Of a DNA stretch of 57,313 bases, positions 37,375 to 54,763 are shown one piece after another. Position numbers and translations under genes: made by a program. The stretch comes from Bacillota bacterium (GTDB lineage Bacteria; Bacillota; Clostridia; Peptostreptococcales; Anaerovoracaceae), in contig JAFYYP010000002.1 in NCBI GenBank assembly GCA_017557505.1, positions 1-57,313 on the forward strand, written 5' to 3'. Below the pieces are notes generated by a model, which saw only the letters and a program-made list of their open reading frames with translations, was not told the origin of the DNA and made no database searches. Positions within the stretch are counted from its first letter, which is position 1. Each line of letters opens with the position of its first letter.

Positions 37375-37404
37375 CATTATACTTGTGGAATGGTCCGTTG
37401 TACA
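37375..37404 (-). promoter_or_regulatory. Promoter of the helix-turn-helix gene
   Basis: Minus strand TGTACA, 17-base spacer, perfect TATAAT (complement of 37376-37381). The upstream edge touches the first palindrome, so a factor bound there could affect both directions. Confidence 0.55.
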
Positions 37405-37407
37405 GGT

Positions 37408-37487
37408 TTCTGGCACGATTCGTGCCAGAAAATTGTCATTGACAAATGCCTGCAAAGAAACACAGGTTCATGGCCTCTTGCTAAAAT
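37408..37487 (+). promoter_or_regulatory. Dual-palindrome promoter, copy 1
   Basis: Palindrome A: TTCTGGCACGA, central T, and its complement (37408-37430), perfect 11-base arms. Palindrome B: TTGTCA-T-TGACAA (37433-37445). Centres are 20 bases apart. Extended -10 TGC-TAAAAT has its hexamer at 37482-37487, 43 bases from B's centre and 63 from A's centre. No good -35, suggesting activator dependence. A hairpin AGGAG/CTCCT plus TTTT follows in the leader (37507-37525), and GCTGCT/AGCAGC precedes the AAGGAGG ribosome site. Confidence 0.7.
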
Positions 37488-37561
37488 ATATAAGTGGTTA
37501 AAGTGGAGGAGTTTCTGCTCCTTTTCTATAAAAGCTGCTTCAGCAGCAAGGAGGACCCTAT

Positions 37562-39823
37562 ATGAAACGAAAAGTGCTTAATTTATTGTTGACTCTGGCC
37601 TTGTGCCTGAGTTTGGTGCCGTTGACGGCAGTTCCGGTGTTTGCGACAAAGGCTTCGCCTGCAACATCACTGATCGTTGGCGGCGTTACGCTGGATTCAT
37701 CTAATCCATATGCTAAGACCGACGGTGCAGGCGTTGTTTCACTTGGAGGAAGTGAAAGTGACTATAATATAAAATTTGACGCATCTACATCGACGCTGAC
37801 GCTCAATAATGCCAATATTTACGGGTATTATTATGACAGAAGTTACGAATATGCATATGGAATCTGGACAAAAGGCGATTTCACGCTGCTGGTAAACGGA
37901 GACAATACTGTTACTCCGTCCGGAGCCTGGGCAGCACATCCCAATGCAGATGTCTTAGGTATAGCGAGTGGAGCAAACGAGCAAGGTGTCTGCATTACAA
38001 TAGGCGGAAACGGTACATTACAAGTGGGGTGCAATGACGAGAATGATGGCCGATATTTTGATGGCATTTCCTTAAGTTCATATAACGGCGACCGCAATGG
38101 CTTGACCCTGAAGGATAGTGTTTCCGTATCTGTCAGGGGAGCAAAATGCTACAGTAATACCGGGGTTGATGTTACAGGCGATATTATCATACGTGATGAT
38201 GCAAACCTGACCGTTTTCTGTAATCAGGCGTGCGGATCCAGCATTGGTGTCGATTGCAGCTTCTCATTAACGGTTCAGGATAATGCCGTTCTGATTGCTG
38301 CCGGTGCAGACAGTTATACCTATTCTATTGAGGATTCCGGGACAACATATACTAGAGAATTAAGTAGCAGCATCGGAATCAAAAGCTCTGATATGACTGT
38401 GAACGGAAATGCAACTGTCGCTTCGACCGGGGGCAAAGTGGTTGAAGGCAGTGGCTCCGAGGACGGCAGTTATGGAATCGTTGTGAACGCAAATGCGTTT
38501 AACATAAATGGCGGAACTGTAGTAGCAAACAGTAAATCTACAGAGGGAGTTTCTGCGGCGTTAAAGCGTGTGCCTGTATTAGGTTCCGGCGTTATCGCCG
38601 GCGGCAGTGTTAATGCGGACGGCAGCGGCGCAGTTCCATATGTGGCTGCGGATAACGACACATATAAGTGGTTCAGAACACCGTTTACAGCATACACTGT
38701 ATCGATCGCCGCCGGCACGGGTATGAGCAAAACGGATGCTTCCGGCGCATTGGAACAGACTGTTGGCGATGGGAGCGCTATTCAGGACATCGTCTTCACT
38801 GCAGACGATGGTTACTGTTTCCCTGACAGCTATTCTGTATCTACAGCAGACGGCATCTCTGTGACGCGGAACAGTGATACCCAGATCACGGTTTCCGGTA
38901 CACCGACCACAGATGTGACGATTAAACTTGCAGATGCTGTAGAGGTTCCTGTTGTACCTAAGGCTCCCACGCCGGTCTTCACACCTGGCGCACAATCCTT
39001 CACCGAATCGATTGATGTTACAATTACGTGTACGCTTTTCGGTGCGACAGTTTACTACACAGACGATGGCAGCGCTCCGAGTGCGACGAACGGCACTGTG
39101 ACTACAGGTGCAGCCATCACGTTGACCGATACGGCAACCTTGAAGGCGATCGCGATTATGGCCGGTTATGATGACAGCGAGGTTGCGACAGCAACATACA
39201 CCAAGACCACCCCGTCTTCCGGTGGTGGTGGCGGCAATGCGACGCCGGAAGAACCTGAAGAGCCTGAAGAATCGGTAGAACCTGCTCCGTCAGATGATTT
39301 CCCGTTCGTGGATGTTCCGGAAGATGCCTATTATCGCGAGCCTGTGGAATGGGCAGTCGAGAAGGGTGTCACGAATGGCGTCAGCGAAGACGAGTATGGC
39401 CCCGAATTGTCCTGCACCAGAGCCCAGGTGGTCACGTTCCTGTGGATCACCTGCGGCAGCGAAGATGCCGGCTCGGAGACCGGATTTGATGATGTGGACG
39501 TGGATGCGTACTACGACAAGGCGGTCGCCTGGGCCGTAGAGCAGGGCATTACGGCTGGTACTTCCGAAAACGAGTTCAGTCCGGAAATGACCATCACCAG
39601 AGCTCAGTTCGTCACGATGCTTTGGGCGGCCAAGGGCAAGCCTGAACCGGATGGCGAAATGCCGTTCAAGGATGTCCCTGAGGACGCGTATTATGCAAAG
39701 GCTGTTGCCTGGGCGTACGCGAACGACATCACGGCAGGCAAGTCCGCCGACAGCTTCGCGCCGGACGATCCCTGCACGAGAGGCCAGATCATGACCTTCC
39801 TGTACAACGCGTATGCGGAATAG
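37562..39823 (+). CDS. Secreted SLH-domain surface protein, 753 residues
   Basis: First of four tandem paralogues. Signal peptide MKRKVLNLLLTLALCLSLVP...VFA (cut near residue 28). A Thr/Asn/Gly-rich region to about 370 starts with a divergent form of the cluster's lead motif (IVGGVTLDSSN ... TSTLTLNNANIYG) and has the short-strand rhythm of a beta-solenoid. Residues about 377-460 carry a shared domain (YTVSIAAGTGM ... DDGYCFPDSY ... ITVSGTPTTDVTIKLADA). A chitobiase-C-like domain follows (about 468-550: ATVYYTDDGSAPSATNGTV). After a GGGGG and Pro/Glu linker, three SLH domains (578-753) should bind the secondary cell-wall polymer. It lacks the InlB-type repeat of its paralogues. Base composition is richer in A+T than housekeeping neighbours. 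Confidence 0.9.
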   Translation: MKRKVLNLLLTLALCLSLVPLTAVPVFATKASPATSLIVGGVTLDSSNPYAKTDGAGVVSLGGSESDYNIKFDASTSTLTLNNANIYGYYYDRSYEYAYGIWTKGDFTLLVNGDNTVTPSGAWAAHPNADVLGIASGANEQGVCITIGGNGTLQVGCNDENDGRYFDGISLSSYNGDRNGLTLKDSVSVSVRGAKCYSNTGVDVTGDIIIRDDANLTVFCNQACGSSIGVDCSFSLTVQDNAVLIAAGADSYTYSIEDSGTTYTRELSSSIGIKSSDMTVNGNATVASTGGKVVEGSGSEDGSYGIVVNANAFNINGGTVVANSKSTEGVSAALKRVPVLGSGVIAGGSVNADGSGAVPYVAADNDTYKWFRTPFTAYTVSIAAGTGMSKTDASGALEQTVGDGSAIQDIVFTADDGYCFPDSYSVSTADGISVTRNSDTQITVSGTPTTDVTIKLADAVEVPVVPKAPTPVFTPGAQSFTESIDVTITCTLFGATVYYTDDGSAPSATNGTVTTGAAITLTDTATLKAIAIMAGYDDSEVATATYTKTTPSSGGGGGNATPEEPEEPEESVEPAPSDDFPFVDVPEDAYYREPVEWAVEKGVTNGVSEDEYGPELSCTRAQVVTFLWITCGSEDAGSETGFDDVDVDAYYDKAVAWAVEQGITAGTSENEFSPEMTITRAQFVTMLWAAKGKPEPDGEMPFKDVPEDAYYAKAVAWAYANDITAGKSADSFAPDDPCTRGQIMTFLYNAYAE

Positions 39824-39858
39824 ACGGTAACAGTTAGAACTGAATGAAATACTGAAGA

Positions 39859-39889
39859 ACAGGCGGCTTGTAAATAGCCGCCTGTTTTA
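39859..39889 (+). terminator. Terminator after the first SLH gene
   Basis: AGGCGGC (39861-39867) pairs with GCCGCCT (39877-39883) around TTGTAAATA, followed by GTTTTATT. It ends four bases before the next palindrome. Confidence 0.8.
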
Positions 39890-39892
39890 TTG

Positions 39893-39969
39893 TGGCACGA
39901 TTCGTGCCAGAAAATTGGCAATGACAAATGCCTGCAGAAAAACACAGGCGCGGGGCCGCTTGTTAAAAT
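39893..39969 (+). promoter_or_regulatory. Dual-palindrome promoter, copy 2
   Basis: Palindrome A: TGGCACGA-T-TCGTGCCA (39893-39909), perfect. Palindrome B: TTGGCA-A-TGACAA (39915-39927). Centres 20 apart; TGT-TAAAAT with hexamer 39964-39969, again 43 and 63 bases from the two centres. Leader hairpin GGAGGCA/TGCTCC (one bulge) at 39985-40000 with T6 directly after, shaped like an attenuator. Confidence 0.7.
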
Positions 39970-40041
39970 GTAAGTGGTTAAAGTGGAGGCATTTTGCTCC
40001 TTTTTTATAGAAAATACTTTGTACAACAAGGAGGACCCTGT

Positions 40042-43000
40042 ATGAAACGAAAAGTACTTAGTTTATTGTTGACCCTGGCGTTATGCCTGAGTCTGGTGCC
40101 GCTGACAGCAGTACCGGTGAGTGCGGCAACCGTTTCAAATGTTATAAAAAGTTTCGACTTTGAAACAGACCCGACGGTAGAGGGCTGGACCTTCGTGGAT
40201 GCTGACGGAGATGCGAGGAGCTGGGTATGGTCAGAAAACAACTCGCAATATAGTGGTAATGGATATGATGGAAGCGAATGCATCGTATCCCGTTATAATC
40301 CATCTGGGGATGTTGACAACTGGGCCATCTCTCCGGCGGTGGATCTCTCCATGTATACTGCGGGTGATCAGCTGGAACTGTCATTGTATGCCAAAAAAAA
40401 CAGCGATACTTACGTGGAACATTTTCAGATATGGGCAGGGACAAGTGCTGATAAAGATCAGATGACATGCATCTCTGGCAACGAGGACATTGTTCCTACG
40501 AGTTCTTATGCACGCTATAAGGCAGATCTCAGCGCTTTTACCGGTAAAGAGATGGTCTATGTTGCGATCCGTCACTGTAACTCGTTTGACCAGTTTAATC
40601 TACTTGTTGATCGGGTTGAGATATGCAAACTGGAGGAGGTTGTTTCCGTCACTGAATACGACCTGTGGGTCGGCAGCGAGCGGGTGACCAGTTCCAATGC
40701 CTCTGACGTCTTCAGCGATGGCAAAGTCAGCTATGACGCAAACAGTAAAACGCTGACCTTGAACGGTTATTCATTCTCTGGTACTGGTTATTATGAGAAT
40801 ACAGGCACTTACGGATCCAGCGATGAGTATTCCGCAATCTTCTCAAAAATCGACGGTTTAACGATCAATTTGGAGGGAACGAACTCTCTGACAGAAGTCG
40901 GAGGTCATCAGAGCAGCAACGGTATCTATTCATTGTATGATCTTACTTTCACCGGCAGCGGTTCGTTGAACGTGACATCTGGCACCCACGACTATAGCTT
41001 TGCCGGACACAGCTGTGGGATCAACGGTCAGACAACTCTGACACTTGACAGCAGTTTTACAGGTTCTATTACGGCCGTTGCAGGCAACAGCAATAACGAT
41101 AACGGGTTTTTGGCCACTATGGGTTGCATTGCGCCAACGATTACGATAGAAGGCGGTACGCTTAACGCAACAGGAGGCAACGTGACTGTCTCCGGTTTTG
41201 GCAGGTCCTATGGCGTCTATGCAAATAACTATTCACAGAGTGGCGGCACCGTTATTGGTACCGGTAACACTGGCGGTGATACTGATGATTCCAGTTTTGG
41301 TCTCTACAATGCTTATGGCGCGTCGATCACAGGCGGTTTCTTCGCTTTTGCAGGAGATAATTACGCTGCCCAAGAGCATCTTTCTTTAGGAACCGGTATC
41401 GATGCCGTCGCTTCTGCAAATAAGAACGGTGATGGTTCGACAGCATATGACCAGAATAATCTGGATAGTTATAAATACATCTCAAATTGCGCGGTTATTC
41501 CCGTCACGACCTATCCTGTTTACGTCGGCAGCGTGCAGGTCGATGAAACCAACACATCAGATGTGCTGGGGGATGGGAAGGTGAGCTATGACCCGGACAG
41601 CAACACGCTTACGCTGAATAATGCAATCATCACTGGCGGAAGTGAAAATACAAGCTACTATGGATGGGGTATCTGTTATCGTGGCAGTGATGACTTCCAG
41701 ATCGTTGCGAACGGAAGTAATATTGTTCAGGATGCCAACTCGAGAACGTTCGCCTCTTATGGCATCATAATTGGCGAGCCCAGCCCGGTTACGTACAGCA
41801 CGGACGCTGTAAACGTCACCATCACAGTCTCCGACGGAGCGAGTCTGGTCGCTGCAGGGGGGAAAGTCAATTCCCATGCTGAAGACTACGAAGGCATTTG
41901 GGGCATCTACAACAAGGGTTCCGGTTCTTTGACTGTAAATGGTGGAGGGACGTTAATAGCGAATGCGAGCACTGACGACAGTAACAGTGATATTAGAAAA
42001 ACGATAGGTCTCGTGGCACAGGATATCACGATCGATGGAAGTTGTACGGTCAACGCCGTTGCAAGTAATTCTAATATGAGCGTTGGTATACTATGTGGTA
42101 ATCTCACTCTGCCTGATAGCTTTACGGGCACTGTTAATGCCGCTTCCGGCAAAGCACCCGGAACAGGTTATAACTATGGAACTTATGGCATCCGGGCTAC
42201 AGGAGATGTTTCCATCGGCGGCGGTACTGTGACAGCTTCGACAGGTGCCAGAACCGGGAATAATACTGCAGGCGACTATGCAGTGGGCATTTTTGGTGAG
42301 AACAGTCTTTCCATCACCGGCAGTACAGTGATGGCTTCCGGCGACGGAGTTGGATTGTGGTGCTACCAGGATACAACATCCATCAATAAATCTGATGTTA
42401 CTGCAATAGGCAACAATATGGCCACTAATGGTTTGAATCTGACAAGCGTAACTGCAGAAGCATCAACAGAAACCGGAGGGACTAATCTTGTCGAATACGA
42501 TGATAGTGCATATTCGACATATAAGTATGTCCATACAACGCCTGTTACGAGCAATAAAGTCGCAGAGCCTGTATTACCTAAAGCCACGACCTTTACAGAC
42601 AGCATGACGATCGAGATCACGTGCGAGACAGAAAACGCTGAAATCTATTACACTACCGGCAGTGCGATCACCCTGTATACAGCGCCGTTCGTCATTACGG
42701 AAACGACAACTGTCGAGGCGCATGCCACCAAGGCTGGTTTTGAAGACAGTGACGTCGTTACTGCGACCTACACCAAGACGACGCCGTCTTCCGGCGGTGG
42801 CGGCGGTGGCGCAACCACTTATCCGGTCACCCCGGCGGAAGCCGAAAACGGCAAGATCACGGTCAGCCCGAAGAACGCGGCGGAAGGGGACAAGGTGACG
42901 ATCACCGTAACTCCGGACGAAGGCTACGAGCTCGATAAGCTGACGGTGAAAGACAAAGACGGCAACGAGATCAAGGCCAAGGATAACGGTGACGGTACCT

Positions 43001-43608
43001 TTACCATCGAGATGCCGGCATCCGAGATCGAGGTCGAAGCGACGTTCAAGGAGGCGGAAGAGACTCCGGGCGAGGACGGCTTCCCGTTCGTAGACGTACC
43101 CGAAGAGGCATACTATCGTGAAGCGGTCGAATGGGCGCTGGAAGCTGATGTTACTGCGGGCACTTCCCCGACCACGTTCAGCCCGAAGGCGAACTGCACG
43201 AGAGCGCAGACCGTCACGTTCCTGTGGAACGCGAGCGGCAAACCCGAACCCACCATCACGAAGTGCCCGTTCAAGGATATCACCGAGAGCGATTACTTCT
43301 ACAAAGCAGTACTTTGGGCATACGAGAACAACATCACGGCAGGCGTAAGCGCGGACAAGTTCGGTCCTGAACAGACGGTCACGCGCGGCCAGGTCGCAAC
43401 GTTCCTGTACGGCATCGCAGGCAAACCTGCTGCCGGAGACGAGCCGTTCGAAGACGTCAACGAAGGCGATTATTTCGAAGGCCCGGTCGCATGGGCGTAC
43501 GAAGAAGGCATCACGGCAGGTACAGGCGCTACGACGTTCAGTCCGATGGCAGACTGCCTGCGTGAGCAGATCGTGACGTTCCTGTACAAGTACTTTGGTG
43601 CAGAATAA
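40042..43608 (+). CDS. Secreted SLH-domain surface protein, 1188 residues, with adhesin-type N-terminal domain
   Basis: Signal peptide nearly identical to its neighbours (cut near residue 29). Residues about 32-195 form a jelly-roll domain of the cleaved-adhesin / choice-of-anchor type (FDFETDPTVEGWTFVDADGD, then WAISPAVDLS and VYVAIRHCNSFDQFNLLVDRVEI). Two solenoid modules follow, each opened by the lead motif: YDLWVGSERVTSSNASDVF near 205 and YPVYVGSVQVDETNTSDVL near 491. Then a chitobiase-C-like domain (about 840-910), an InlB-B-like repeat (TTYPVTPAEAENGKITVSPK, about 920-1005) and three SLH domains (about 1012-1188). ATG follows AAGGAGG; the open frame 16 codons upstream is leader. Likely adhesin or glycan-binding; ligand unknown. 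Confidence 0.9.
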   Translation: MKRKVLSLLLTLALCLSLVPLTAVPVSAATVSNVIKSFDFETDPTVEGWTFVDADGDARSWVWSENNSQYSGNGYDGSECIVSRYNPSGDVDNWAISPAVDLSMYTAGDQLELSLYAKKNSDTYVEHFQIWAGTSADKDQMTCISGNEDIVPTSSYARYKADLSAFTGKEMVYVAIRHCNSFDQFNLLVDRVEICKLEEVVSVTEYDLWVGSERVTSSNASDVFSDGKVSYDANSKTLTLNGYSFSGTGYYENTGTYGSSDEYSAIFSKIDGLTINLEGTNSLTEVGGHQSSNGIYSLYDLTFTGSGSLNVTSGTHDYSFAGHSCGINGQTTLTLDSSFTGSITAVAGNSNNDNGFLATMGCIAPTITIEGGTLNATGGNVTVSGFGRSYGVYANNYSQSGGTVIGTGNTGGDTDDSSFGLYNAYGASITGGFFAFAGDNYAAQEHLSLGTGIDAVASANKNGDGSTAYDQNNLDSYKYISNCAVIPVTTYPVYVGSVQVDETNTSDVLGDGKVSYDPDSNTLTLNNAIITGGSENTSYYGWGICYRGSDDFQIVANGSNIVQDANSRTFASYGIIIGEPSPVTYSTDAVNVTITVSDGASLVAAGGKVNSHAEDYEGIWGIYNKGSGSLTVNGGGTLIANASTDDSNSDIRKTIGLVAQDITIDGSCTVNAVASNSNMSVGILCGNLTLPDSFTGTVNAASGKAPGTGYNYGTYGIRATGDVSIGGGTVTASTGARTGNNTAGDYAVGIFGENSLSITGSTVMASGDGVGLWCYQDTTSINKSDVTAIGNNMATNGLNLTSVTAEASTETGGTNLVEYDDSAYSTYKYVHTTPVTSNKVAEPVLPKATTFTDSMTIEITCETENAEIYYTTGSAITLYTAPFVITETTTVEAHATKAGFEDSDVVTATYTKTTPSSGGGGGGATTYPVTPAEAENGKITVSPKNAAEGDKVTITVTPDEGYELDKLTVKDKDGNEIKAKDNGDGTFTIEMPASEIEVEATFKEAEETPGEDGFPFVDVPEEAYYREAVEWALEADVTAGTSPTTFSPKANCTRAQTVTFLWNASGKPEPTITKCPFKDITESDYFYKAVLWAYENNITAGVSADKFGPEQTVTRGQVATFLYGIAGKPAAGDEPFEDVNEGDYFEGPVAWAYEEGITAGTGATTFSPMADCLREQIVTFLYKYFGAE
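42760..42878 (+). repeat. Identical 119-base tract shared with the next SLH gene (copy 1)
   Basis: By eye identical to 46738-46856, covering the end of the chitobiase-C-like domain, the Gly-rich linker and the start of the InlB-type repeat, while the flanks differ. This suggests recombination between paralogues. Confidence 0.75.
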
Positions 43609-43638
43609 AGACTGAAAAGCGCTAAACAAAACAATCAA

Positions 43639-43668
43639 AACGGACGGTCCTTCGGGACCGTCCGTTTA
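43639..43668 (+). terminator. Terminator after the second SLH gene
   Basis: CGGACGGTCC pairs perfectly with GGACCGTCCG around TTCG, followed by TTTAT. It ends just before the third palindrome. Confidence 0.85.
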
Positions 43669-43673
43669 TGTTA

Positions 43674-43748
43674 GCACGATTCGTGCCAGAAAATTGTCAT
43701 TGCCAAATGTCTGTAGAAAAACACACGCATAGGGCCTCTTGCTAAAAT
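43674..43748 (+). promoter_or_regulatory. Dual-palindrome promoter, copy 3
   Basis: Palindrome A: GCACGA-T-TCGTGC (43674-43686), arms shortened by an A for G change at the 5' side. Palindrome B: TTGTCA-T-TGCCAA (43694-43706). Centres 20 apart; TGC-TAAAAT hexamer 43743-43748, 43 and 63 bases from the centres. Leader hairpin AAGGAGC/GCTCCTT with TTAT loop at 43765-43782 and following T's. Confidence 0.7.
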
Positions 43749-43821
43749 GTAAGTGGTTAAAGTGAAGGAGCTTATGCTCCTTTTCTATAGAAACTGCTTT
43801 ATACAGCAAGGAGGACTCTGT

Positions 43822-46800
43822 ATGAAACGAAAAGTACTAAGTTTATTGTTGACTCTGGCGTTGTGCCTGAGTCTGGTGCCGCTGACGGCTGTGTTAGTGC
43901 ACGCAGTGACGGTACCGAATGCGACCGAGATCAGCATCTACGGTAACGGATATGATGCGACGGCGGACTTTGAAGATCCGGCAGGAAAGTATTCGTACAG
44001 AGCGGCGACTCATACGCTGACGTTGAATAATTTCAACGCAGATGACGAGTGGTCGGCGCCGGATGTAGGGACCATTGACACGGAAGCGAGCATCTACGCA
44101 AACGGAAGCCTGAATATCACGCTGCAAGGCAATAACGTTATCGATGCGACGCAGCACAGAGGTCTCGCAGAGTTGTTCTGCGCGATCGCGATCGATGGCG
44201 GTGACCTGACGATCAACGGTCCGGGAACGCTCACGATCACGATGAACGATACGATGGGAAGTTACCTGGATGCAAACGCTGGTATCTACGTCGCAAGAAA
44301 ATACGACAGCTCTCAGAGCTCGTATGTAGGCGGCAGCCTGGCCATCTATAACGCGACGATCGATGTGACCTGCGGAAGCGTCATCACAAAAACGTGGGAC
44401 GGAAGTTCCTGGTCAGTCACCGGCGCGTATTATTCGTATGGTCTGTATGCGGAAGAATCAGTATACATCGCGAACTCGACAGTGTCGGCAACGTCAGGCG
44501 ATTCGTATTATTACGGATACGGCATCAAGGCTGGTGGCGGTTTGACGGTGTCAGACAGTACGCTGAATCTGGAAACAGGATGGGGTTACGACTACTACGA
44601 ATTCGGAGCCAGGGTCGAAGGCGATATAAACGTAAATAACAGTACCGTAACGGCGCACATTGGCGACACGTACTACGGCGCTTATGGTCTGTACACAGGA
44701 AAGTCTCTGTCGCTCACAAATGGTTCCCAGGTGTTTATCGAAACAGATCCTGTTATAAGCACGTGGACGAACGGCGTTTACGCAGGCGATCTCGTTCAGA
44801 CGAACTCACTGCTCGATATTGATATCGACGTAACGACGAACAGCACGGGACTTAGCGTCGGATACACAGGCGCGGTGAGAAGCTCACAGATCAATATCGA
44901 TATCGATGAAGCGACGAAGGGCGAAAACCTCGGCATCGATATCGGTACTCAGGCGGACAGCAGATCAGGTTTCCTGTTCGGGAACAGTGAAGTCAACGTA
45001 ACGCTCGGACCCTCAAGATCTCAGGATGAGAATAGAAGCGGTAAGGCGATCGCCATGCGTGTAGTATGGGGCGATGTCGATATCGTCAACAGCGATGTCG
45101 ATCTGAGCGTAACGAGCTCGACGAGCTACATGCCGTACGACGCGTATGGAATCTATGTGGAATCTCCGAATTATTACAATTCAAACAGAGGCGGAGATCT
45201 AACGGTTGAAGCTGGCAGCACGCTGGATATCGAAACCGGAAATGTGGTTCATGACGCAGGCGGCATCTACATTTCTTCCAACATACTGAACGGTGATGAT
45301 GCCAAGATCACCATCAAGACCGGCGAGGCGAAAGGAACCACATATTCAAGCACGGACGGTCTCTATGCCAACGGGTTTGATTTGGCAGACTGCGATCTGA
45401 CGATCGAATCGGGTGAAGCAAACGACGGATGCACATGTATCTACGTTCACGACGATACAGCGGAAAAGACTTTCGATAACTGCAAAGTAAGCCTGACGGC
45501 GAACGGCTCGCCGACCTACAGTTCAACCGCAATGAGTTCCGGCGGACGCTCTCCGTTCAAGGTAAAGAACGGCACGGATCTGTCGGTCGAAGTAAAAAAG
45601 AGCGAAAGCGCATGCGGTATCGAAAGCTGGGGCGGTCTGACGGTAGAAGACAGCACCCTGACGGTAAAGACAGCAGATGCGACGCTATACAGTAACTACG
45701 GCATCAACGCTCCGAGCGATAACAGGGGAGTCGTGGCGTCCGTTAAGAACAGCACGGTCACGATCGACGCTGGCAAAGCAGGTCCGGATACGGGCTGGTC
45801 AGTCTCGATCGGTTGGTCTTCCTACAAGGGCTTCGATATCGACGAAGACAGTACGGTTACCGTAACAGCTGGCGGCAACGCGAGCACGCAGTGCATCGGC
45901 ATGGCTGTATATGACGGAGAACCTATCAACCTGGCCGGCACGGTAACAACGAAGGCTGGAAACGTTATTGGTGATAACGCGAGAGGAAGTTTCGGACTCG
46001 TGACGAATCTCGGATCAGATACCACGCTGAATATCCCCGGCACGTTTACGGCACAAGGATATACCAGAGCAATAACCGGTGGTTGGACATCCGGAAGTTT
46101 CGGTAACACGAATATTGAAGCAGAAAATATCTTAGCAGGTGTAGCATATGATGGCTCGGATGCAGAGCTCGTAGACAAAAACGGCGCGGCTACGGCTACG
46201 CTGTACACATCTACGGCAAAATACGTCAAGACGGCGGAAGCTTATACGGTAACGGTCAACCTTGGCAGCCACATGGCGTTTAGTGACGCTACGATGCCTG
46301 TGACGCAGTCTGTACTCAAGGACGCTGCAATCAAAGAACTATCTGTTGTCGCAGAAACGGATTATTGTTTCCCGGATAGCTATGCTTCTTTAGGAACAAC
46401 TAACGGCATTACCGTTAAGCTGAATAATGGTGACATTACTATTTCCGGCACGCCGACTGCAGATGTAACGATCAATCTTGCAGATGCGGAAGCGGTTCCG
46501 GCAGTGCCCAAGGCCGCTACTCCAGTCTTCACACCTGCTGCGCAGTCCTTCACTGAATCGATCGACGTTACGATCACGTGTACGCTTACCGGTGCAACCG
46601 TCTACTATACAGACGACGGCAGCACGCCGAGCGCAACGAACGGTACAGTGACCACAGGTGCAGCGATCACGCTGACCAACACGACGACGCTAAAGGCGAT
46701 CGCGGTCATGGCCGGCTACGACGACAGTGAAGTTGCAACTGCGACCTACACCAAGACGACGCCGTCTTCCGGCGGTGGCGGCGGTGGCGCAACCACTTAT

Positions 46801-47586
46801 CCGGTCACCCCGGCGGAAGCCGAAAACGGCAAGATCACGGTCAGCCCGAAGAACGCAGCAGAAGGGGACAAGGTGACCATCACCGTAACTTCGGACGAAG
46901 GTTACGAACTCGATAAACTGACAGTGAAAGATAAGAACGGCAACGAGATCAAGGTCACGGAAAAGGACGGCAAGTACACGTTTACGATGCCGGCTTCTGA
47001 AGTGGACATCGAAGCGACCTTCAAGGAAGCGGAAGAAGAACCTGCTCCGGCAGACGACTTCCCGTTTGTGGACGTTCCGGAAGACGCTTACTACCGCAAG
47101 GCTGTCGAGTGGGCGCTTGAGGAGGGCGTGACCGGCGGAACTTCTCCGACGACCTTCAGCCCGATGGCAGACGCGACCAGAGCGCAGATCGTGACGTTCC
47201 TGTGGGCGGCAGCAGGCGCACCCGAACCCGAAACGACGGAGAACCCGTTCAAGGATATCTCCGAAAGCGATTACTTCTACAAGGCCGTGCTGTGGGCGTA
47301 TGAGAACGGCATCACGGCAGGCGTTTCCGAAGACGAGTTCGGTCCGTACCGGACGGTGACGAGAGGGCAGGTCGTGACCTTCCTCTACGGCTATGCCGGA
47401 AGACCGGAGGCCGGAACGGAGAATCCGTTCACGGACGTTTCCGAGAGCGATTACTTCTGCGCGCCGGTGCTGTGGGCTTACAGAGAAGACATCACGGCGG
47501 GCACGAGCGCGACGATGTTCAGCCCGGACGACGATTGCCTGAGAGGCCAGATCATAACGTTTATGTATCTGTACTTTGCGGAATAG
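43822..47586 (+). CDS. Secreted SLH-domain surface protein, 1254 residues
   Basis: Signal peptide as in its neighbours (cut near residue 30, LVHA). The long repetitive region (about 32-830) opens with a diverged lead motif (ISIYGNGYDATADF ... YRAATHTLTLNNFNADD) and then alternates YGxYA/G-type turns with short strands (SYGLYAEESVYIANSTVSA, YGYGIKAGGGLTVSDSTLNL), as expected of a beta-solenoid. It continues with the shared YTVTVNLGSHMAFSD...SGTPTADVTINLADA domain, a chitobiase-C-like domain, an InlB-B-like repeat and three SLH domains (about 1079-1254). An in-frame codon 23 residues upstream is in the leader and is not used. The last ~360 bases are nearly identical to those of the next gene. 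Confidence 0.9.
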   Translation: MKRKVLSLLLTLALCLSLVPLTAVLVHAVTVPNATEISIYGNGYDATADFEDPAGKYSYRAATHTLTLNNFNADDEWSAPDVGTIDTEASIYANGSLNITLQGNNVIDATQHRGLAELFCAIAIDGGDLTINGPGTLTITMNDTMGSYLDANAGIYVARKYDSSQSSYVGGSLAIYNATIDVTCGSVITKTWDGSSWSVTGAYYSYGLYAEESVYIANSTVSATSGDSYYYGYGIKAGGGLTVSDSTLNLETGWGYDYYEFGARVEGDINVNNSTVTAHIGDTYYGAYGLYTGKSLSLTNGSQVFIETDPVISTWTNGVYAGDLVQTNSLLDIDIDVTTNSTGLSVGYTGAVRSSQINIDIDEATKGENLGIDIGTQADSRSGFLFGNSEVNVTLGPSRSQDENRSGKAIAMRVVWGDVDIVNSDVDLSVTSSTSYMPYDAYGIYVESPNYYNSNRGGDLTVEAGSTLDIETGNVVHDAGGIYISSNILNGDDAKITIKTGEAKGTTYSSTDGLYANGFDLADCDLTIESGEANDGCTCIYVHDDTAEKTFDNCKVSLTANGSPTYSSTAMSSGGRSPFKVKNGTDLSVEVKKSESACGIESWGGLTVEDSTLTVKTADATLYSNYGINAPSDNRGVVASVKNSTVTIDAGKAGPDTGWSVSIGWSSYKGFDIDEDSTVTVTAGGNASTQCIGMAVYDGEPINLAGTVTTKAGNVIGDNARGSFGLVTNLGSDTTLNIPGTFTAQGYTRAITGGWTSGSFGNTNIEAENILAGVAYDGSDAELVDKNGAATATLYTSTAKYVKTAEAYTVTVNLGSHMAFSDATMPVTQSVLKDAAIKELSVVAETDYCFPDSYASLGTTNGITVKLNNGDITISGTPTADVTINLADAEAVPAVPKAATPVFTPAAQSFTESIDVTITCTLTGATVYYTDDGSTPSATNGTVTTGAAITLTNTTTLKAIAVMAGYDDSEVATATYTKTTPSSGGGGGGATTYPVTPAEAENGKITVSPKNAAEGDKVTITVTSDEGYELDKLTVKDKNGNEIKVTEKDGKYTFTMPASEVDIEATFKEAEEEPAPADDFPFVDVPEDAYYRKAVEWALEEGVTGGTSPTTFSPMADATRAQIVTFLWAAAGAPEPETTENPFKDISESDYFYKAVLWAYENGITAGVSEDEFGPYRTVTRGQVVTFLYGYAGRPEAGTENPFTDVSESDYFCAPVLWAYREDITAGTSATMFSPDDDCLRGQIITFMYLYFAE
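46738..46856 (+). repeat. Identical 119-base tract shared with the previous SLH gene (copy 2)
   Basis: Matches 42760-42878 base for base by eye; both copies include the run of Gly codons and the TTYPVTPAEAENGK-encoding segment. Confidence 0.75.
47212..47571 (+). repeat. Near-identical SLH-coding 3' segment (copy 1)
   Basis: Colinear with 54386-54745 at a constant offset of 7174 bases, with only scattered third-position changes. It encodes the second and third SLH domains of the third and fourth SLH proteins. Confidence 0.75.
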
Positions 47587-47608
47587 GGCTTTAGTTGAAT
47601 GAATACCG

Positions 47609-47642
47609 GAAAAGCGGTCTCTTAGAGACCGCTTTTCTTTTT
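47609..47642 (+). terminator. Terminator after the third SLH gene
   Basis: AAAAGCGGTCTC pairs perfectly with GAGACCGCTTTT around TTA, followed by CTTTTTT. Confidence 0.9.
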
Positions 47643-47652
47643 TATCAGTCCT

Positions 47653-47727
47653 GGCACGATTCGTGCCTGAAATTGGCATTGCCAAAATCCCGCCAATCAG
47701 GACATGTGCAGGATAATTCTATACAAT
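47653..47727 (+). promoter_or_regulatory. Dual-palindrome promoter, copy 4
   Basis: Palindrome A: GGCACGA-T-TCGTGCC (47653-47667). Palindrome B: TTGGCA-T-TGCCAA (47673-47685), here perfect. Centres are 19 apart (one base deleted), yet TACAAT at 47722-47727 is still exactly 43 bases from B's centre. Outside the palindromes the region is unrelated to copies 1-3, so conservation of the palindromes is selective. Leader hairpin AGCAA/TTGCT at 47736-47748. Confidence 0.65.
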
Positions 47728-47794: not shown

Positions 47795-50700
47795 ATGAAA
47801 AAAGTATTCAGTATCCTGCTGACCCTGACATTGTGTCTGGGTTTGGCGGCAGCGATCAGTACGCAGGAGGTGCACGCCGAGACCTACAGTATATGGGTAG
47901 GCGGTACGGAGGTCACGAGCGATAACGCTTCGGACGTCTTCGGCGACGGCACCGTCAGTTACGATACTGCCACGAACACTCTCACCCTGAAGAATTACTC
48001 CTACTCAGGGCAAGGGTGGAAAAATTACAGTTCATTCTACGGGATATATCTCGGGATGTACGGGGATCTCAAGGTCCAGCTCGTCGGTGATAACAACATT
48101 CAACTTGCTGCTCCGGATACCAATTGCAATTCGTACGGACTGTTTTACAGCAATTATGACAAGCTGACATTCAAGGGCAGCGGGAGTCTGACCGTCCGCG
48201 GAGGAGATCTGCCGGAAGGAACCAGCACATCTATCGAAACTGCCGGTATGGGAGGTTATTACGGAGATATTATCTTCGGAAACGAGTTCACCGGCAGTGT
48301 GACCGCGCTGGGCGGAAAAGTCACCAATGCGGGAAGTTCCATAGGTCTTTTTGCAAGCTCAGGGTGTGATGTATTCAATGGTACTGTCGTGTGCATGGGC
48401 GGAGATTTCAGCGCAACAGGCAGTATTTACAGTTTGGGTTCCAAAATGAGCAGTACTGCCAACATCTACGGCGGATCATTTACGTCTTTAGGCGGCAAAA
48501 TATCCACGTCAAATGGATATGCTTACAGCTATGGCGTATATGGTTCTTCGCTGACCGTTAATGTGTTTGACGGTACTCTCATCATGCAGGGAGGCAGTGC
48601 AACAGGCACTTCCTCTGCCTACAGTAATGGTACGAACTGGGGCACTCTAAACCTGTACGGCGGTGTTACTGTCGCTCAGGGGGGTGCTGCCGCGAAGACA
48701 GACACATCGAATTTCTCCGGCCTTTACAGCATCGGTGCAGACTGCGATGTAAGATCTTACGGTGGTGTACTGATCGCGCGCGGCGGGACGCTCAACGACG
48801 GATATAGAGTTGTGACAAAAGGATATGGTGATCAAAGATCTGCGATCGACGGCCGATTCCTTTTGGGTGAGGGAATGAAGATCGCAGGCGCTGTGGGTTA
48901 TTCAGACGTAACGGGAACTTCCGGCTTTGGCGAATTGACCGTCACCAGTGACAACAGCACTGCCGCCAACCTGAGCGGTTCTGTCGGAGGCGTCAGCAAC
49001 TACAGCGGACAGGAAGGATTGGGATCCGGTTATCTTGTTTATCCGACCGGCATAGTTATCGTTCCTTCAGATTGGACGGAAACAGATACTGCCGGTACCC
49101 TTACAGGCAATTCCTACAATGTACGTATCGATGGATCAGACCTTTCCGCATCCTCGGTCCAGCTCGGATCGTATTCGCTCCTCAGTGCAAACCTGTACGA
49201 AGGGACTGCTGTTTCCGCCGGAACAGGCCTTAACCTCAGCGGCGGCATCAGTGGAAACGGCGGAACTCTTGTAGCCGCAGGACCCACTCTTACCGGAGCA
49301 GGTTCTGTCAGTTCCGGCCTTATGACCACCGGCGCGGTCAGCGGAAATATCGGCGTGATCGCTGTCGGCGGCACAGCGCCGGTTACTTATGGATTGGGCG
49401 GCTCCGGAACGGTCAATGCTTCCGGGCTCACAGAGGACGGAAAGCTGATCGCGACAGGTCTTGCTTCTGCACTCGGATCCGGAACAGCAGTAAATGCCGG
49501 GGCACTCGGGGTTATCGATCAGGAAATGTATTACAGCGTAGCGTATTACGAAAATACCGCACCGACGTATACCGTCACGATCACACCTGGCGCGCATATG
49601 ACCCTTGCCGAAGGTTCCGGCGATCTGGTGCAGACGGGGAACGGCCCGCTGACGACCATCATCCTGACGGCAGACGAGGGGTACTACTTCCCGAAAGACT
49701 ATGTCGAAAAGAATTTCCTGCCCAAAGACAGCTGGAATATCGAGGCGGCATGGAGCAGGAGCGGTTACGGCACCACGATAAAGATATCCGGGACACCGGG
49801 AACAAACCATAACATCAACCTTGCGGATGCGGAACTCTACGTTTATCCGGTCTGGATCGGCGGCGTCCGCGTAACGGCTCTTAACAAAGACGACCTTGTC
49901 ACTGCCATCAACGAGGCTGCAGGCGAGGAAGTCGCTACGGGAACGGCTGTGTATACGCCCGGTACGCTCAGGTTCCATTCCTCTTATCCCGAGATCGTCA
50001 TGGACTACAACGGCACCATTACGCTTACGGATTTCACGTACAAGGGCGAAGGGTATCAGTTTGCGACGGGAAACGATAAATACGCAGCACTGTATGTTGA
50101 TGCTTACAAACTTACATATCCGCAAACCTCTTCAGAATACAGGCTGACGGTGGAACTTTCCGGCTCGAACAGCATTACGCAGCATGTTTCCAGCACGGAA
50201 GCGAACGCAGACGATGTATATGGCATCTATTTCAACGGCGGCGGAAACAGGGATCAGGGCATAAGTTTTACCGGCAGCGGTAATCTTACTGCCACAGCAG
50301 AAGTTGTGGACAGCAAGAACATCGCAGCAGGTCTGTATGTATACGGTCACTGCTATGCGAAGAGCGGAGCGGAAGTGACCTTTACAGGACCTTCCGGAAA
50401 CGTCAATGAAAGCAGCGGCATCATTCTTCGCAGCAATACCTATTATCTCGGCGCCAGCAGCAATGGTATATTCACGGCGAGCGGGGATACCTACGCGATC
50501 AACGACTTGACGACTCCATCGAATGGGTATTCCAGAGTACAGTATTCCGCTCCGTATTACCTGCTTGCAGGATCTTCTCCGGATGGAAGCGACGCTTCAC
50601 CCTATTCGGGTACGGGAGAGGATAATGCGAAAGATCTGATGGGATACAAGTTTATCTCTTTGGGTCAGGGCGAATTGTTCGTTGCCGGTATGGCTGTAAC

Positions 50701-53700
50701 CGACGGCAACGCGAATGATATTGCAGCTGCTGTCAATGCGGCTTATCCCGGTTCCATGACCGGAACAGCGACCTACGACTCGTCCACGCACACTCTGACG
50801 CTGAAGGATGCTGATATCAGCAATCTCAGCACAGGCGAGCAGGACATCAACTACTGGGGTATCACTTATTACGGCAAGGAGCCGCTGAATGTTGTGGTCA
50901 ACGGCACCAACAGCGTAACAGGGAAAGACAGAAGTGATGACGATACTTACGGAATCTGCAGTGACTACGGCATAAACTTTACCGGCAGCGGCAAGCTCGT
51001 AGTTACCGGAGGCAACGTATCCACTTACGATGATTCCGGCGGTATCTATGGAGCTGTTACTGTTGACGGGCCGGATATCGAGGCTTACGGAGGCAGTACG
51101 AGAGATTATTCTTATGGCATTGATGGATCGGTAACACTTAAGAGCGGCAGTCTGAAAGCTGTTGGCGGCAAGTCCAGTTCGGAAGATTCCTATGGCATCG
51201 ATGGCAGCGTGCTCGTTGAAGGCGGTACGCTGACAGCAACGGGTGGAACCGCTTACGATTATTCATATGGTATTGACGGAACTTTAACGCTGCAGGATGG
51301 AGAGGTCTATGCCAACGGAGGACCATCCACCGGAGATTACAGTGTGGGTCTGTACAGTGCAGAAGTCAACGGAGGTAAACTCACAGTCACTTGTGATGTC
51401 GGTTACGACGGCAATTACGGTATATACAGCTCTCTCACGGTAAATGACGGCGAAGTGATCGTCAACAGCGGAGATAGTAAATACAGCGTAGGTGTCGATG
51501 GTACTACGACGATCAACGGAGGAAAGACCACGATAAATGCCGGCAACGCACAGACCAGCCGAGGCATTTACGCAAGTACTTATGTATATGGCGGAGAGTT
51601 GTACGTTAACGGCGGAACAGGGACCGCCAGCGGGAGCGATTCGACCTACAGTTATGGCGTATCCGGTACACTCTATATGCACGATGGAGGAACTGCGAAG
51701 ATCACATCCGCTGAGGCTACGTACAGTTATGCGGTCAATGGATATCCTTATATCAAGGGTGGTTCGCTTGAACTGATCGCGAACGGAACGCAGACAGCGC
51801 AGATCTGCAGCTCCACGCCAAGCCTTGAGGAAAAAGTCGCGGTACTCATTGCATCCCCGAACGCGGATGCCAGCGATCCGGTTCCCTATGTAAAATCGGA
51901 CTACGCAACATATAAATATCTGAAGACCGGTCCGGGTTACGCGCTGTGGGTCGGCGACAAGCAGATCCACGCGGGTATCGCAGACGATGTCTTCGGCGAC
52001 AATAAGGTGAGCTTCGATCCCAAGACCGTCACGCTCACGATAAACGGAGCAGATCTCACCGCATCCGGAAACAATGCTGTGATCCATTATAACGATAATG
52101 ACCTCGGGCCCCTGACGATCGAATTTGCGGGCACAAGCACGTTGACCTATACCGGAACGAACAGTACGTGCGGTATCTACAGTTCTGCCCACGATGCAGA
52201 CTACAATGATTATCCGCTGACCATAAAACTGGCAGACGATGCTGTCGTCAATATCGTTTGTCCGACGATCAGTTCGGGATATGACAGGCCTTCTTATGGG
52301 ATACGGCTGTGGTCGCCTCTTACGATAGACGGCGCCGGAACATTCAATATCAACGCATCCGACTTTACTGGCGAGGTGCTGGGTTCCAGCACGGGACTCT
52401 ATGCAACCGATCTCATCCTTTCCGGCGGTGTTACGCTCAACGTCAATGGCGGCGACTGCGACGCGGTCTACTCCGACCGTACCTGCGACAGCATGGGCGT
52501 CTATTTGAACCGGGATCTTACTATAGAGGACGGCTGCACGCTGAACGCAGCCGGAGGATCCGTCATAGGATCCAACAACTCGAGTTATCCTGCTACGAGT
52601 GACGGACTCTGCATGTATCCCGGAACGACGGTCACACTGAGCGGCAGCGCAAAGGCGCTTGTTAAGGGCGGAACCTATACCTCCGGCAATTACGGCGGAT
52701 CCTACGGATTCTTCGCCCTTGGCTGGGATTCCAAGAGCATCGTATTCGATACGAGCAGCTGGACCGGGGAATTCGACATGAGAGGTGAGAGCGGACACTC
52801 CGCGATATACTATATCTATGGATCCTACGCTTATGCCCGTGATGTCGATGCGACAGAAATGACTGTCTTTGAGAATTCGGATGATACGGAAGGTACTGAT
52901 ATAACGTACAGTCCTTACTGGTGCTACGGCAGAAATACGACCGACAAGAGGCTGCTCATCTATCCGAACAGCAGCCTTACGGTCACCATCACCGCTGCAG
53001 ACGGAATGACTCCGGCGGCAGCATATAAAGAGACCGTTAAAAGCAAGAACAGCATGACGGAGCAGATCTATACTGCTGCGGACGGCTACTATTTCCCCGA
53101 GGATTATGCATCCATCGGTATCACTTCCGGCATCGAAGTCAGCCGGATAGACTACAGCCAGATCAAGGTCTCCGGTACGCCGACAGCAGCCGTGGACATC
53201 AAGCTTGCTGCCGCGACTGCCAAAGCCGCAGCTGCAGTGCCTACCGGTGTGGACAAGACCGACTGCACCACCGTTGCGAACAACGACGGTGCAATCACCG
53301 GCGTGGATAAGACCATGGAGTATCAGAAGTCCAGTGATTCCTCCTGGACAGCCATTACCGGCAGTACGGTCGAAGGACTTGCTCCCGGAACATATTCCGT
53401 TCGGGTCAAGGCGACAGATACAGCATATGCATCTGAAGCGGTCAACGTTACGATCGCGGAATACAACGCGCCGAAGTTCGCTATAACGGTGGACGGCGGC
53501 AGCGCATTGAACAGCGCAGGCAAGACCATCACGGAAGCCGTGGAAGGAGAGACGGTAAAGCTTTCCTATGAAGAACCGGACGGAATGGGCTTCGATCACT
53601 GGGAGTTCATCACCGGAATCGGTGCTTCCGATCTCTCGAACGATCAGTTCACGATGCCCGCAGAAGCGGTATCGTTGAAGGCGGTATTCCTCGAACGTGT

Positions 53701-54763
53701 GGCAACGCCGGTTCTGGAGGCGGAGAGCACGGTCTTTAAGGATTCCCTCGACGTCACCATTTCCTGCATGACGTCCGGCGCAGCCATCCACTACACGCTG
53801 GACGGCAGTGACCCGACGGCAAACAGCAGCACGTTCACATCCGGAAGCGCGATCACGCTCACGAAGACGACGACGGTCAAGGCGATCGCAGTTCTTGACG
53901 GTTATGCGGACAGTGAGATCGCATCCCAGACCTACACCCTGAAGTCCGCTTCCGGCGGCGCGACCACTTACCCGGTCAAACCGGTAGAAGCTGAGAATGG
54001 TGAGATCACTGTCAGCCCGAAGAGGGCGTCGAAGGGCCGCACGGTCACCGTGACGGTTACTCCCGACGAAGGCTACGAGTTAGACAAACTGGTCGTCAAG
54101 GACAAGGACGGCAACGAGATCGAGGTCACCGACAACGGAGACGGCACATACACGTTCAAGATGCCGGATTCCGAAGTCGAGATCGAACCGGTGTTCAAGG
54201 AAGCGGAACCCGAAACACCCGCAGAAGATGCATTCCCGTTCGTGGACGTTCCCGAGGACGCTTACTTCCGTAAAGCGGTCGAGTGGGCACTCAAGGAGGG
54301 CGTGACCGGCGGAACGACGCCGACGACTTTCAGCCCGTATCTGGATGCGACCAGGGCACAGACTGTCACGTTCCTGTGGGCGGCTGCAGGCGCACCCGAT
54401 CCCGAGACGACGGAGAACCCGTTCAAGGATATCTCCGAGAGCGACTACTTCTACAAGGCAGTGCTGTGGGCGTATGAGAACGGCATCACGGCAGGTGTTT
54501 CCGAAGACGAATTCGGTCCGTACCGGACGGTGACGAGAGGGCAGGTCGTGACCTTCCTCTACGGCTATGCCGGCAGGCCGGAGGCAGGAACGGAGAATCC
54601 GTTCACGGACGTTTCCGAAAGCGATTACTTCTGCGCGCCGGTGCTGTGGGCTTACAGAGAAGACATCACGGCGGGCACGAGTGCGACGACGTTCAGCCCG
54701 GACGATCCGTGCCTGAGAGGCCAGATCATCACGTTCATGTATCTGTTCTTCGGGGCAGAATAA
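47795..54763 (+). CDS. Giant secreted SLH-domain surface protein, 2322 residues
   Basis: Largest member of the cluster. Signal peptide to about residue 28 (EVHA). Four solenoid modules, each opened by the lead motif: YSIWVGGTEVTSDNASDVFG near 31, YPVWIGGVRVTALNKDD near 682, LFVAGMAVTDGNANDI near 960, YALWVGDKQIHAGIADDVFG near 1381. Between them lie the shared YTVTITPGAHM...SGTPG domain (near 590-680) and, at about 1085-1332, some ten tandem short repeats of YSYGIDGSLTL..G.L.A.GG type. Residues about 1727-1810 repeat the SGTPT domain; then an Ig-like stretch, a chitobiase-C-like domain, an InlB-B-like repeat and three SLH domains (about 2145-2322). ATG follows AGAAGGGGG. Cell-wall bound, probably binding glycans or other cells; no enzyme motif seen. 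Confidence 0.9.
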   Translation: MKKVFSILLTLTLCLGLAAAISTQEVHAETYSIWVGGTEVTSDNASDVFGDGTVSYDTATNTLTLKNYSYSGQGWKNYSSFYGIYLGMYGDLKVQLVGDNNIQLAAPDTNCNSYGLFYSNYDKLTFKGSGSLTVRGGDLPEGTSTSIETAGMGGYYGDIIFGNEFTGSVTALGGKVTNAGSSIGLFASSGCDVFNGTVVCMGGDFSATGSIYSLGSKMSSTANIYGGSFTSLGGKISTSNGYAYSYGVYGSSLTVNVFDGTLIMQGGSATGTSSAYSNGTNWGTLNLYGGVTVAQGGAAAKTDTSNFSGLYSIGADCDVRSYGGVLIARGGTLNDGYRVVTKGYGDQRSAIDGRFLLGEGMKIAGAVGYSDVTGTSGFGELTVTSDNSTAANLSGSVGGVSNYSGQEGLGSGYLVYPTGIVIVPSDWTETDTAGTLTGNSYNVRIDGSDLSASSVQLGSYSLLSANLYEGTAVSAGTGLNLSGGISGNGGTLVAAGPTLTGAGSVSSGLMTTGAVSGNIGVIAVGGTAPVTYGLGGSGTVNASGLTEDGKLIATGLASALGSGTAVNAGALGVIDQEMYYSVAYYENTAPTYTVTITPGAHMTLAEGSGDLVQTGNGPLTTIILTADEGYYFPKDYVEKNFLPKDSWNIEAAWSRSGYGTTIKISGTPGTNHNINLADAELYVYPVWIGGVRVTALNKDDLVTAINEAAGEEVATGTAVYTPGTLRFHSSYPEIVMDYNGTITLTDFTYKGEGYQFATGNDKYAALYVDAYKLTYPQTSSEYRLTVELSGSNSITQHVSSTEANADDVYGIYFNGGGNRDQGISFTGSGNLTATAEVVDSKNIAAGLYVYGHCYAKSGAEVTFTGPSGNVNESSGIILRSNTYYLGASSNGIFTASGDTYAINDLTTPSNGYSRVQYSAPYYLLAGSSPDGSDASPYSGTGEDNAKDLMGYKFISLGQGELFVAGMAVTDGNANDIAAAVNAAYPGSMTGTATYDSSTHTLTLKDADISNLSTGEQDINYWGITYYGKEPLNVVVNGTNSVTGKDRSDDDTYGICSDYGINFTGSGKLVVTGGNVSTYDDSGGIYGAVTVDGPDIEAYGGSTRDYSYGIDGSVTLKSGSLKAVGGKSSSEDSYGIDGSVLVEGGTLTATGGTAYDYSYGIDGTLTLQDGEVYANGGPSTGDYSVGLYSAEVNGGKLTVTCDVGYDGNYGIYSSLTVNDGEVIVNSGDSKYSVGVDGTTTINGGKTTINAGNAQTSRGIYASTYVYGGELYVNGGTGTASGSDSTYSYGVSGTLYMHDGGTAKITSAEATYSYAVNGYPYIKGGSLELIANGTQTAQICSSTPSLEEKVAVLIASPNADASDPVPYVKSDYATYKYLKTGPGYALWVGDKQIHAGIADDVFGDNKVSFDPKTVTLTINGADLTASGNNAVIHYNDNDLGPLTIEFAGTSTLTYTGTNSTCGIYSSAHDADYNDYPLTIKLADDAVVNIVCPTISSGYDRPSYGIRLWSPLTIDGAGTFNINASDFTGEVLGSSTGLYATDLILSGGVTLNVNGGDCDAVYSDRTCDSMGVYLNRDLTIEDGCTLNAAGGSVIGSNNSSYPATSDGLCMYPGTTVTLSGSAKALVKGGTYTSGNYGGSYGFFALGWDSKSIVFDTSSWTGEFDMRGESGHSAIYYIYGSYAYARDVDATEMTVFENSDDTEGTDITYSPYWCYGRNTTDKRLLIYPNSSLTVTITAADGMTPAAAYKETVKSKNSMTEQIYTAADGYYFPEDYASIGITSGIEVSRIDYSQIKVSGTPTAAVDIKLAAATAKAAAAVPTGVDKTDCTTVANNDGAITGVDKTMEYQKSSDSSWTAITGSTVEGLAPGTYSVRVKATDTAYASEAVNVTIAEYNAPKFAITVDGGSALNSAGKTITEAVEGETVKLSYEEPDGMGFDHWEFITGIGASDLSNDQFTMPAEAVSLKAVFLERVATPVLEAESTVFKDSLDVTISCMTSGAAIHYTLDGSDPTANSSTFTSGSAITLTKTTTVKAIAVLDGYADSEIASQTYTLKSASGGATTYPVKPVEAENGEITVSPKRASKGRTVTVTVTPDEGYELDKLVVKDKDGNEIEVTDNGDGTYTFKMPDSEVEIEPVFKEAEPETPAEDAFPFVDVPEDAYFRKAVEWALKEGVTGGTTPTTFSPYLDATRAQTVTFLWAAAGAPDPETTENPFKDISESDYFYKAVLWAYENGITAGVSEDEFGPYRTVTRGQVVTFLYGYAGRPEAGTENPFTDVSESDYFCAPVLWAYREDITAGTSATTFSPDDPCLRGQIITFMYLFFGAE
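51046..51790 (+). repeat. Tandem beta-solenoid repeats within the giant SLH gene
   Basis: About ten repeats of 22-28 codons. Protein consensus roughly YGIDG-(S/T)-L-T-L-(x)2-G-x-L-x-A-x-GG with a short variable linker. DNA copies are diverged, so the array is not expected to slip readily. Confidence 0.75.
54386..54745 (+). repeat. Near-identical SLH-coding 3' segment (copy 2)
   Basis: Partner of 47212-47571; see that entry. Differences are mostly silent. Confidence 0.75.

Follow-up and report, generated by a model that had tools for sequence, protein, structure and literature searches.

Each of the four SLH genes in the window, i.e., the whole 57,313-nucleotide stretch analyzed here, is preceded by two palindromes, A and B, and a −10 hexamer, which raises the question of what reads these sites and to what effect. 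A first-pass annotation had proposed that a set of surface proteins is co-regulated, either by two factors or by one that acts at two sites on one DNA face. The finding is real and more general than first reported, and most likely represents the operator of an undescribed clostridial helix-turn-helix (HTH) regulator family.

Four palindrome pairs upstream of SLH genes

All coordinates of palindrome A, palindrome B and the −10 hexamer upstream of the four genes were found again (Table 1). Re-measurement confirmed centre-to-centre distances between A and B of 20, 20, 20 and 19 bp in copies 1–4 and a −10 located 43 bp past the centre of B in all four; an extended TGn before the −10 is present in copies 1–3 only, as described before. 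The 15-bp core of palindrome A is exact in copies 1, 2 and 4 and carries one mismatch in copy 3, and palindrome B matches TTGKCANTGMCAA exactly in all four copies. Searched singly with mismatches across the whole window, both elements are found near chance level (A with ≤3 mismatches, 6 seen and 4.56 expected; B with ≤2 mismatches, 11 seen and 6.19 expected), and the signal in the window consists of exact matches at a fixed spacing.

Copies 1–3 are highly similar from A into the signal-peptide codons. Copy 4 had been said to retain both palindromes and the distance from B to the −10 within surroundings unrelated to the other copies. The first part holds, but the leader of copy 4 (TTGGAGCAATTTTTGCT) can be aligned with those of copies 1–3, and it closely resembles the leaders of three further loci (L066, L067, L068). 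Leaders are alignable across the genus. Repeats which we take to be MraZ-like occur in the leaders of copies 1–3 and in none of the other 11 aligned leaders. When six leaders were folded, those of copies 1 and 3 were beaten or equalled by just 4 of 200 shuffles; in the remaining four, between 26 and 180 of the 200 shuffles folded equally well. A third dyad (e.g., GGAG...CTCC) is seen in the leader just past the −10, at 37488–37562 and 43749–43822 of the window and at L043:10362–10432 (minus strand).

All four encoded proteins have three SLH matches and, judged by eye, signal-peptide-like N termini. Inverted repeats resembling intrinsic terminators stand directly before copies 2, 3 and 4, so each copy seems to start its own transcript.

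Table 1. Positions of the palindromes, promoter elements, genes and terminator-like repeats in the window.
Feature	Position	Strand	Remark
Candidate regulator gene P0001	36224..37345	−	373 aa; divergent from copy 1; N-terminal helix-turn-helix by sequence
−10 of regulator gene	37376..37381	−	TATAAT on minus strand
−35 of regulator gene	37399..37404	−	TGTACA; 17-bp spacer
Palindrome A, copy 1	37411..37427	none	sequence match
Palindrome B, copy 1	37433..37445	none	sequence match
−10 of SLH gene 1	37482..37487	+	TAAAAT; extended TGC
SLH gene 1	37562..39823	+	753 aa; three SLH matches
Terminator-like inverted repeat after SLH gene 1	39860..39884	+	intrinsic type
Palindrome A, copy 2	39893..39909	none	sequence match
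Palindrome B, copy 2	39915..39927	none	sequence match
−10 of SLH gene 2	39964..39969	+	TAAAAT
SLH gene 2	40042..43608	+	1188 aa from ATG
Terminator-like inverted repeat after SLH gene 2	43640..43665	+	intrinsic type
Palindrome A, copy 3	43672..43688	none	sequence match
Palindrome B, copy 3	43694..43706	none	sequence match
−10 of SLH gene 3	43743..43748	+	TAAAAT
SLH gene 3	43822..47586	+	1254 aa from ATG
Terminator-like inverted repeat after SLH gene 3	47610..47636	+	intrinsic type
Palindrome A, copy 4	47652..47668	none	sequence match
Palindrome B, copy 4	47673..47685	none	sequence match
−10 of SLH gene 4	47722..47727	+	TACAAT
SLH gene 4	47795..54763	+	2322 aa; three SLH matches

A divergent candidate regulator and the proposed operator in its relatives

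Just beyond the interval covered by the first-pass annotation (37408..47727) lies the gene of P0001, whose N-terminal segment reads as a helix-turn-helix. No Pfam or NCBIfam model matched P0001 over the cut-off and no PDB chain was found below an E-value of 0.49. Weak matches to HTH_31 (10 of 55 family members, best E 0.0057) and HTH_3 (2 of 55, best E 0.0041) were obtained for relatives, none of them for P0001 itself, and the C-terminal region of the regulators gave no significant match in Pfam, NCBIfam or PDB. The titles and opening parts of abstracts covered by a literature search contained no description of this regulator or operator, nor of a regulator for such surface-protein clusters.

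Relatives of P0001 are encoded in 13 of 73 genomes, including the window's own, and 10 of 13 intergenic regions beside regulator matches hold palindromes of TGNCA boxes by our own reading. An alignment of 11 regulators served as query for a wide contig scan, which yielded 133 loci encoding relatives; the best 80 of the 133 were kept for analysis. Four relative-bearing records are labelled as organisms outside Bacillota (Atopobiaceae, Brocadia, Smithella and a delta proteobacterium) and may be mis-binned.

The operator consensus is TGNCA-N7-TGNCA for A, a 17-bp palindrome with boxes 12 bp apart, and TTGNCA-N-TGNCAA for B, a 13-bp palindrome with boxes 6 bp apart. Using as criteria at least 7 of 8 matches for A, at least 8 of 10 for B, and centres 18–22 bp apart upstream of the regulator, an A-B pair was detected in 48 of the best 80 loci, and in none of 20 dinucleotide-shuffled sets of 80 upstream regions; as the motif was set after some of these sequences had been viewed, the shuffles test chance and not the choice of motif. 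The spacing is 20 bp in 21 loci, 21 bp in 12, 19 bp in 9, 22 bp in 4 and 18 bp in 2. By these criteria 32 of the 80 loci have no pair, and some of them have A alone; in L069 a pair is present, but its A scores 6 of 8. Cultured species with a pair include Youngiibacter fragilis (L102), Petrocella sp. (L109) and Acidaminobacter hydrogenoformans (L137). Occurrence in relatives, on which the first-pass annotation had let its proposal depend, was thus found at the same spacings in genomes of the same genus and in distant Clostridia. The architecture looks old and functional rather than a local repeat.

The 80 loci were also rescanned end to end with a stricter B (9 of 10). This gave 48 pairs, 42 of which lie in the regulator's own upstream region. 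Of the six pairs elsewhere, those of L069 and L073, which are once more contigs of G005 and G002, are found before SLH genes, that of L067 stands ahead of a secreted gene running off the locus end, and those of L091 and L135 have no clear target gene. The sixth, at L144:10422 (minus strand) in Anoxynatronum buryatiense, lies ahead of a small partner gene, some 4 kb past the point where the regulator gene ends; there is no pair upstream of that regulator gene.

A partly independent test used the sequences upstream of 12 regulators encoded in genomes of the class, three of them on apparently already-covered contigs. The nine further relatives comprise one with a full pair and a TATAAT 44 bp past B, one with an A-like site only, four tandem-HTH proteins with a B-type palindrome and no canonical A, and three with neither clearly. 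The four tandem-HTH proteins (L172, L173, L175 and L176) are distant relatives with an additional N-terminal HTH-like segment, and their B-type palindrome lies in the divergent promoter.

Within the 2.2-Mb, 87%-complete genome of the window, A with ≤2 mismatches occurs at twelve places, four of which are the window copies, and B was absent beside the A-like site at the seven places viewed of the other eight. An operator profile built from 14 genus-level operators was run over eight genomes of the same genus, including the window's own, and scored 150 of the 182 to 307 first-look candidates per genome. Full sites numbered four in the window's genome, one in G001, three in G002 and three in G005, the latter three genomes giving expected matches, as their sites are training sequences or copies of these. 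Five weaker rows were three reverse-strand readings at known sites, one partial site (at the regulator of G006) and one weak site (G002); G003, which has a regulator and a variant operator (L051), gave no row. The genome-wide search that the first-pass annotation had suggested therefore returned no full site besides the window copies, among 150 of 290 candidates scored by profile in this genome, and the regulon looks local. By our own row count, 28 open frames of the genome contain 62 SLH matches altogether; four of these frames lie in the window. The 24 further frames, on contigs other than C6, have no such operator by these searches, and other controls must exist for them.

In 119 genomes, a loose A-B pattern matched in the window's genome, in two genomes of the same genus and at two places in G066, and its reversed control gave three matches. 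A strict pattern with fixed spacing and ≤1 mismatch found three window copies and two other sites in 245 genomes of the class: one in G159, inside open frames, and one in G272, in no open frame of 100 aa; at E 1e-15, no regulator was matched in either genome. The strict pattern missed all 17 other regulator-bearing genomes and is thus insensitive. The look-alikes of G066 (L013, and L017 on a plasmid-sized contig of 5132 bases) precede small genes; judged by eye, their flanks could be a mobilisation region, and they seem unrelated to the surface-protein operator.

Likely target genes, promoter geometry and proposed direction of control

In G005 and G002, operators precede a lipoprotein gene, which is divergent from the P0001-related gene, and two further secreted genes each; of the four secreted genes, three finish with SLH-like repeats as judged by eye and the fourth runs off the end of the stretch. 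Neighbours at the 80 loci were classed by a crude gene-calling rule of our own, which misfiles at least L071 (a long secreted gene is divergent there); on this basis, the pair is found in 39 of the 50 loci whose divergent gene encodes a secreted protein or the ~100-aa partner and in 2 of 14 without a divergent neighbour (p = 2.4e-5), besides 4 of 11 with another divergent gene and 3 of 5 without a gene call. At least 16 of the 80 loci have an SLH open frame in their flanks, which extend to 5 kb and contain many incomplete frames. Of eight long divergent proteins analysed with Pfam, two carry SLH domains; the others matched leucine-rich, cadherin-like or YDG models, or gave no more than weak matches of surface type. 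The regulators seem to act on surface proteins more broadly, with SLH proteins as one kind. By the same rule, 23 of 80 loci have, divergent to the regulator and near it, a gene for a conserved ~100-aa protein with a KTGFFET-like motif (e.g., L117:4544–4840 and L089:4542–4844, both minus strand). Two members scanned had no Pfam match; the protein may belong to the same system.

For promoter geometry, 47 of 52 operators (48 from the loci and four from the window) remained once those ≥70% identical to a kept one or near a sequence end had been removed. A target −10 of sigma-70 type (at least 5 of 6 matches to TATAAT) starts at B+42 to B+46 in 41 of the 47, mostly at 43 or 44; five search intervals shifted along the sequence gave 1 to 4 each. 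The 43 bp noted between B and the −10 in the window holds throughout the family to within two bases, at a mean identity of only 30% for the DNA in between. The extended TGn, present in 8 of 47 operators, is not family-wide. On the other side, a −10 of the regulator gene with the same minimum of 5 matches lies 36–40 bp from the centre of A in 32 of 45 cases, with a peak at 38–39 (37–39 when taken across loci). The −35 scores on average 2.9 of 6 at target promoters (controls 2.4, n = 41) and 3.5 of 6 at regulator promoters (controls 2.4, n = 32). With the first base of the −10 set to −12, A is positioned near −75 and B near −55 of the SLH promoters; relative to the regulator gene, A is at about −51. 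Since A and B are thus upstream of the −35 region in both directions and off the promoter cores, activation is favoured, and A lying just upstream of the regulator's own −35 makes autoregulation likely.

Based on these results, A-B is quite probably the operator of the divergently encoded P0001, through which the four SLH genes would be activated together. We infer from the sequences that P0001, probably as a pair of dimers, would bind the TGNCA boxes of A and of B and would activate rather than repress. At A-B it would recruit RNA polymerase to a −10 with a poor −35, the four monocistronic surface-protein genes would be switched together, and the C-terminal region of the regulator would sense an input. 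Activation, which is argued from site geometry, fits best. Regulators of the Cro/C1 type are often repressors, and a divergent layout would suit autorepression too; the same regulator at the same operator might thus repress the SLH genes, and possibly its own gene, or act on them as a ligand-switched dual regulator. We consider this unlikely, as A and B are located upstream of the −35 both ways and would not block the polymerase sterically, and as the target promoters look weak at the −35.

Proposed recognition of both palindromes and comparison with known systems

Whether a single protein reads both palindromes can be approached through the letter N of the TGNCA boxes, at which the arms of A are complementary in 33 of 47 operators and those of B in 24 of 47. 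In a first screen with A's left arm, regulator column 33 came out on top, and over the 53 loci with an A call it led all 265 columns for both arms of A. Residue 33, placed by alignment to known repressors, presumably lies in the recognition helix. H33 goes with letter A in 36 of 46 arms of palindrome A, and 44 of 46 arms at Y33 loci have G or T; the counts for F33 (8 arms) and L33 (6 arms) are too small to judge. Letter A in A's left arm is found in 19 of 23 loci with H33 and in 4 of 30 with other residues (p = 6e-7). When loci were thinned by protein identity, this association weakened, giving p = 9e-5 (<70%, n = 37), 0.0017 (<60%, n = 31) and 0.38 (<50%, n = 19), and five phylogenetically independent contrasts were split into three for, none against and two ties.

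The joint analysis of A and B covered 260 columns in the 46 loci for which both a pair and a readable protein were available. Column 33 ranked first of 260 both for N of A (z 8.0) and for N of B with both arms together (z 8.8). For B's right arm alone it was again first, and for the left arm alone second (z 4.2, versus z 7.1 for column 17). In palindrome B, letter A occupies 21 of 42 arms at H33 loci as opposed to 1 of 50 at the others. As the same column correlates with bases of both palindromes, one factor is favoured. Co-regulation of a surface-protein set by two factors or by one at two sites, as first proposed, is supported by conserved spacings and secreted neighbours, with residue 33 speaking for one. 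The additional claim of a single DNA face fares less well: a spacing of two turns applies roughly, but at 18 to 22 bp it is merely approximate.

We lean, with some reservation, towards an undescribed and widespread clostridial regulator family that would control surface proteins, those with SLH domains included, by way of a conserved four-box operator (TGNCA boxes at ~12, 11 and 6 bp), and in which one HTH would read both palindromes and H or Y at position 33 would set the base. Quite unlikely, to our mind, is that P0001 occupies one palindrome and another protein the other. The centre-to-centre spacing of the boxes does differ between A (12 bp) and B (6 bp), the latter being an odd geometry for a single dimer, a B with no canonical A beside it is seen in four tandem-HTH relatives, and column 33 is just second for B's left arm alone. 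Nevertheless, residue 33 ranks first for A and for both arms of B together, the TGNCA box is common to both palindromes, and 42 of the 48 strict pairs are located at the regulator gene.

In the layout of its putative N-terminal HTH and in its divergent, probably self-regulating gene, P0001 is like Cro/C1 (XRE) regulators such as lambda CI and the 434 repressor. Lambda operators are 17-bp palindromes with half-sites about one turn apart, similar to palindrome A. However, the P0001 family has only weak Pfam HTH matches and an unassigned C-terminal region, and here a second palindrome of other spacing is present, with the sites placed upstream of the −35 instead of overlapping the promoter. EspR of Mycobacterium tuberculosis, a solved HTH regulator, gave a weak, non-significant match over the HTH only (E 0.78–1.1, profile positions 24–58); its name links it to secretion genes, and the search reported no such match for the C-terminal region of the P0001 family.

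Sigma-54 promoters have −24/−12 elements with GG-N10-GC spacing, and A in copies 1, 2 and 4 resembles their TGGCACG-N4-TTGC. That A is such a promoter, with B at the start site, would agree with A's TGGCACG-N4-GTGC, which has this very spacing, and with the window's genome encoding RpoN (one DNA-binding-domain match) and four activator-domain matches over the cut-off, one of them low-scoring; the excerpted text of a comparative study also ties sigma-54 to the cell exterior (PMC3162934). Across the 47 operators, however, the required G on A's left is found in 17 and the C on its right in 19 while palindromy is kept, and the conserved spacing is instead that to a sigma-70-type −10. GG-N10-GC not being conserved, we rejected sigma-54 as a general explanation and regard it as very improbable. 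Recent duplication of one promoter, with the palindromes as passengers, would account for the close likeness of copies 1–3 but can practically be dismissed, as A, B and their spacings persist in copy 4 and in dozens of distant loci whose other positions have diverged.

SLH proteins and other surface proteins influence the way in which Clostridia of the gut and rumen, and syntrophic ones, interact with their environment. What is gained for the control of these proteins is a candidate regulator gene, an operator, a promoter geometry and a putative recognition code, which are transferable to other species, including cultured ones. If true, a single-factor operator composed of two palindromes with differing box spacing would pose an unusual problem of DNA recognition.
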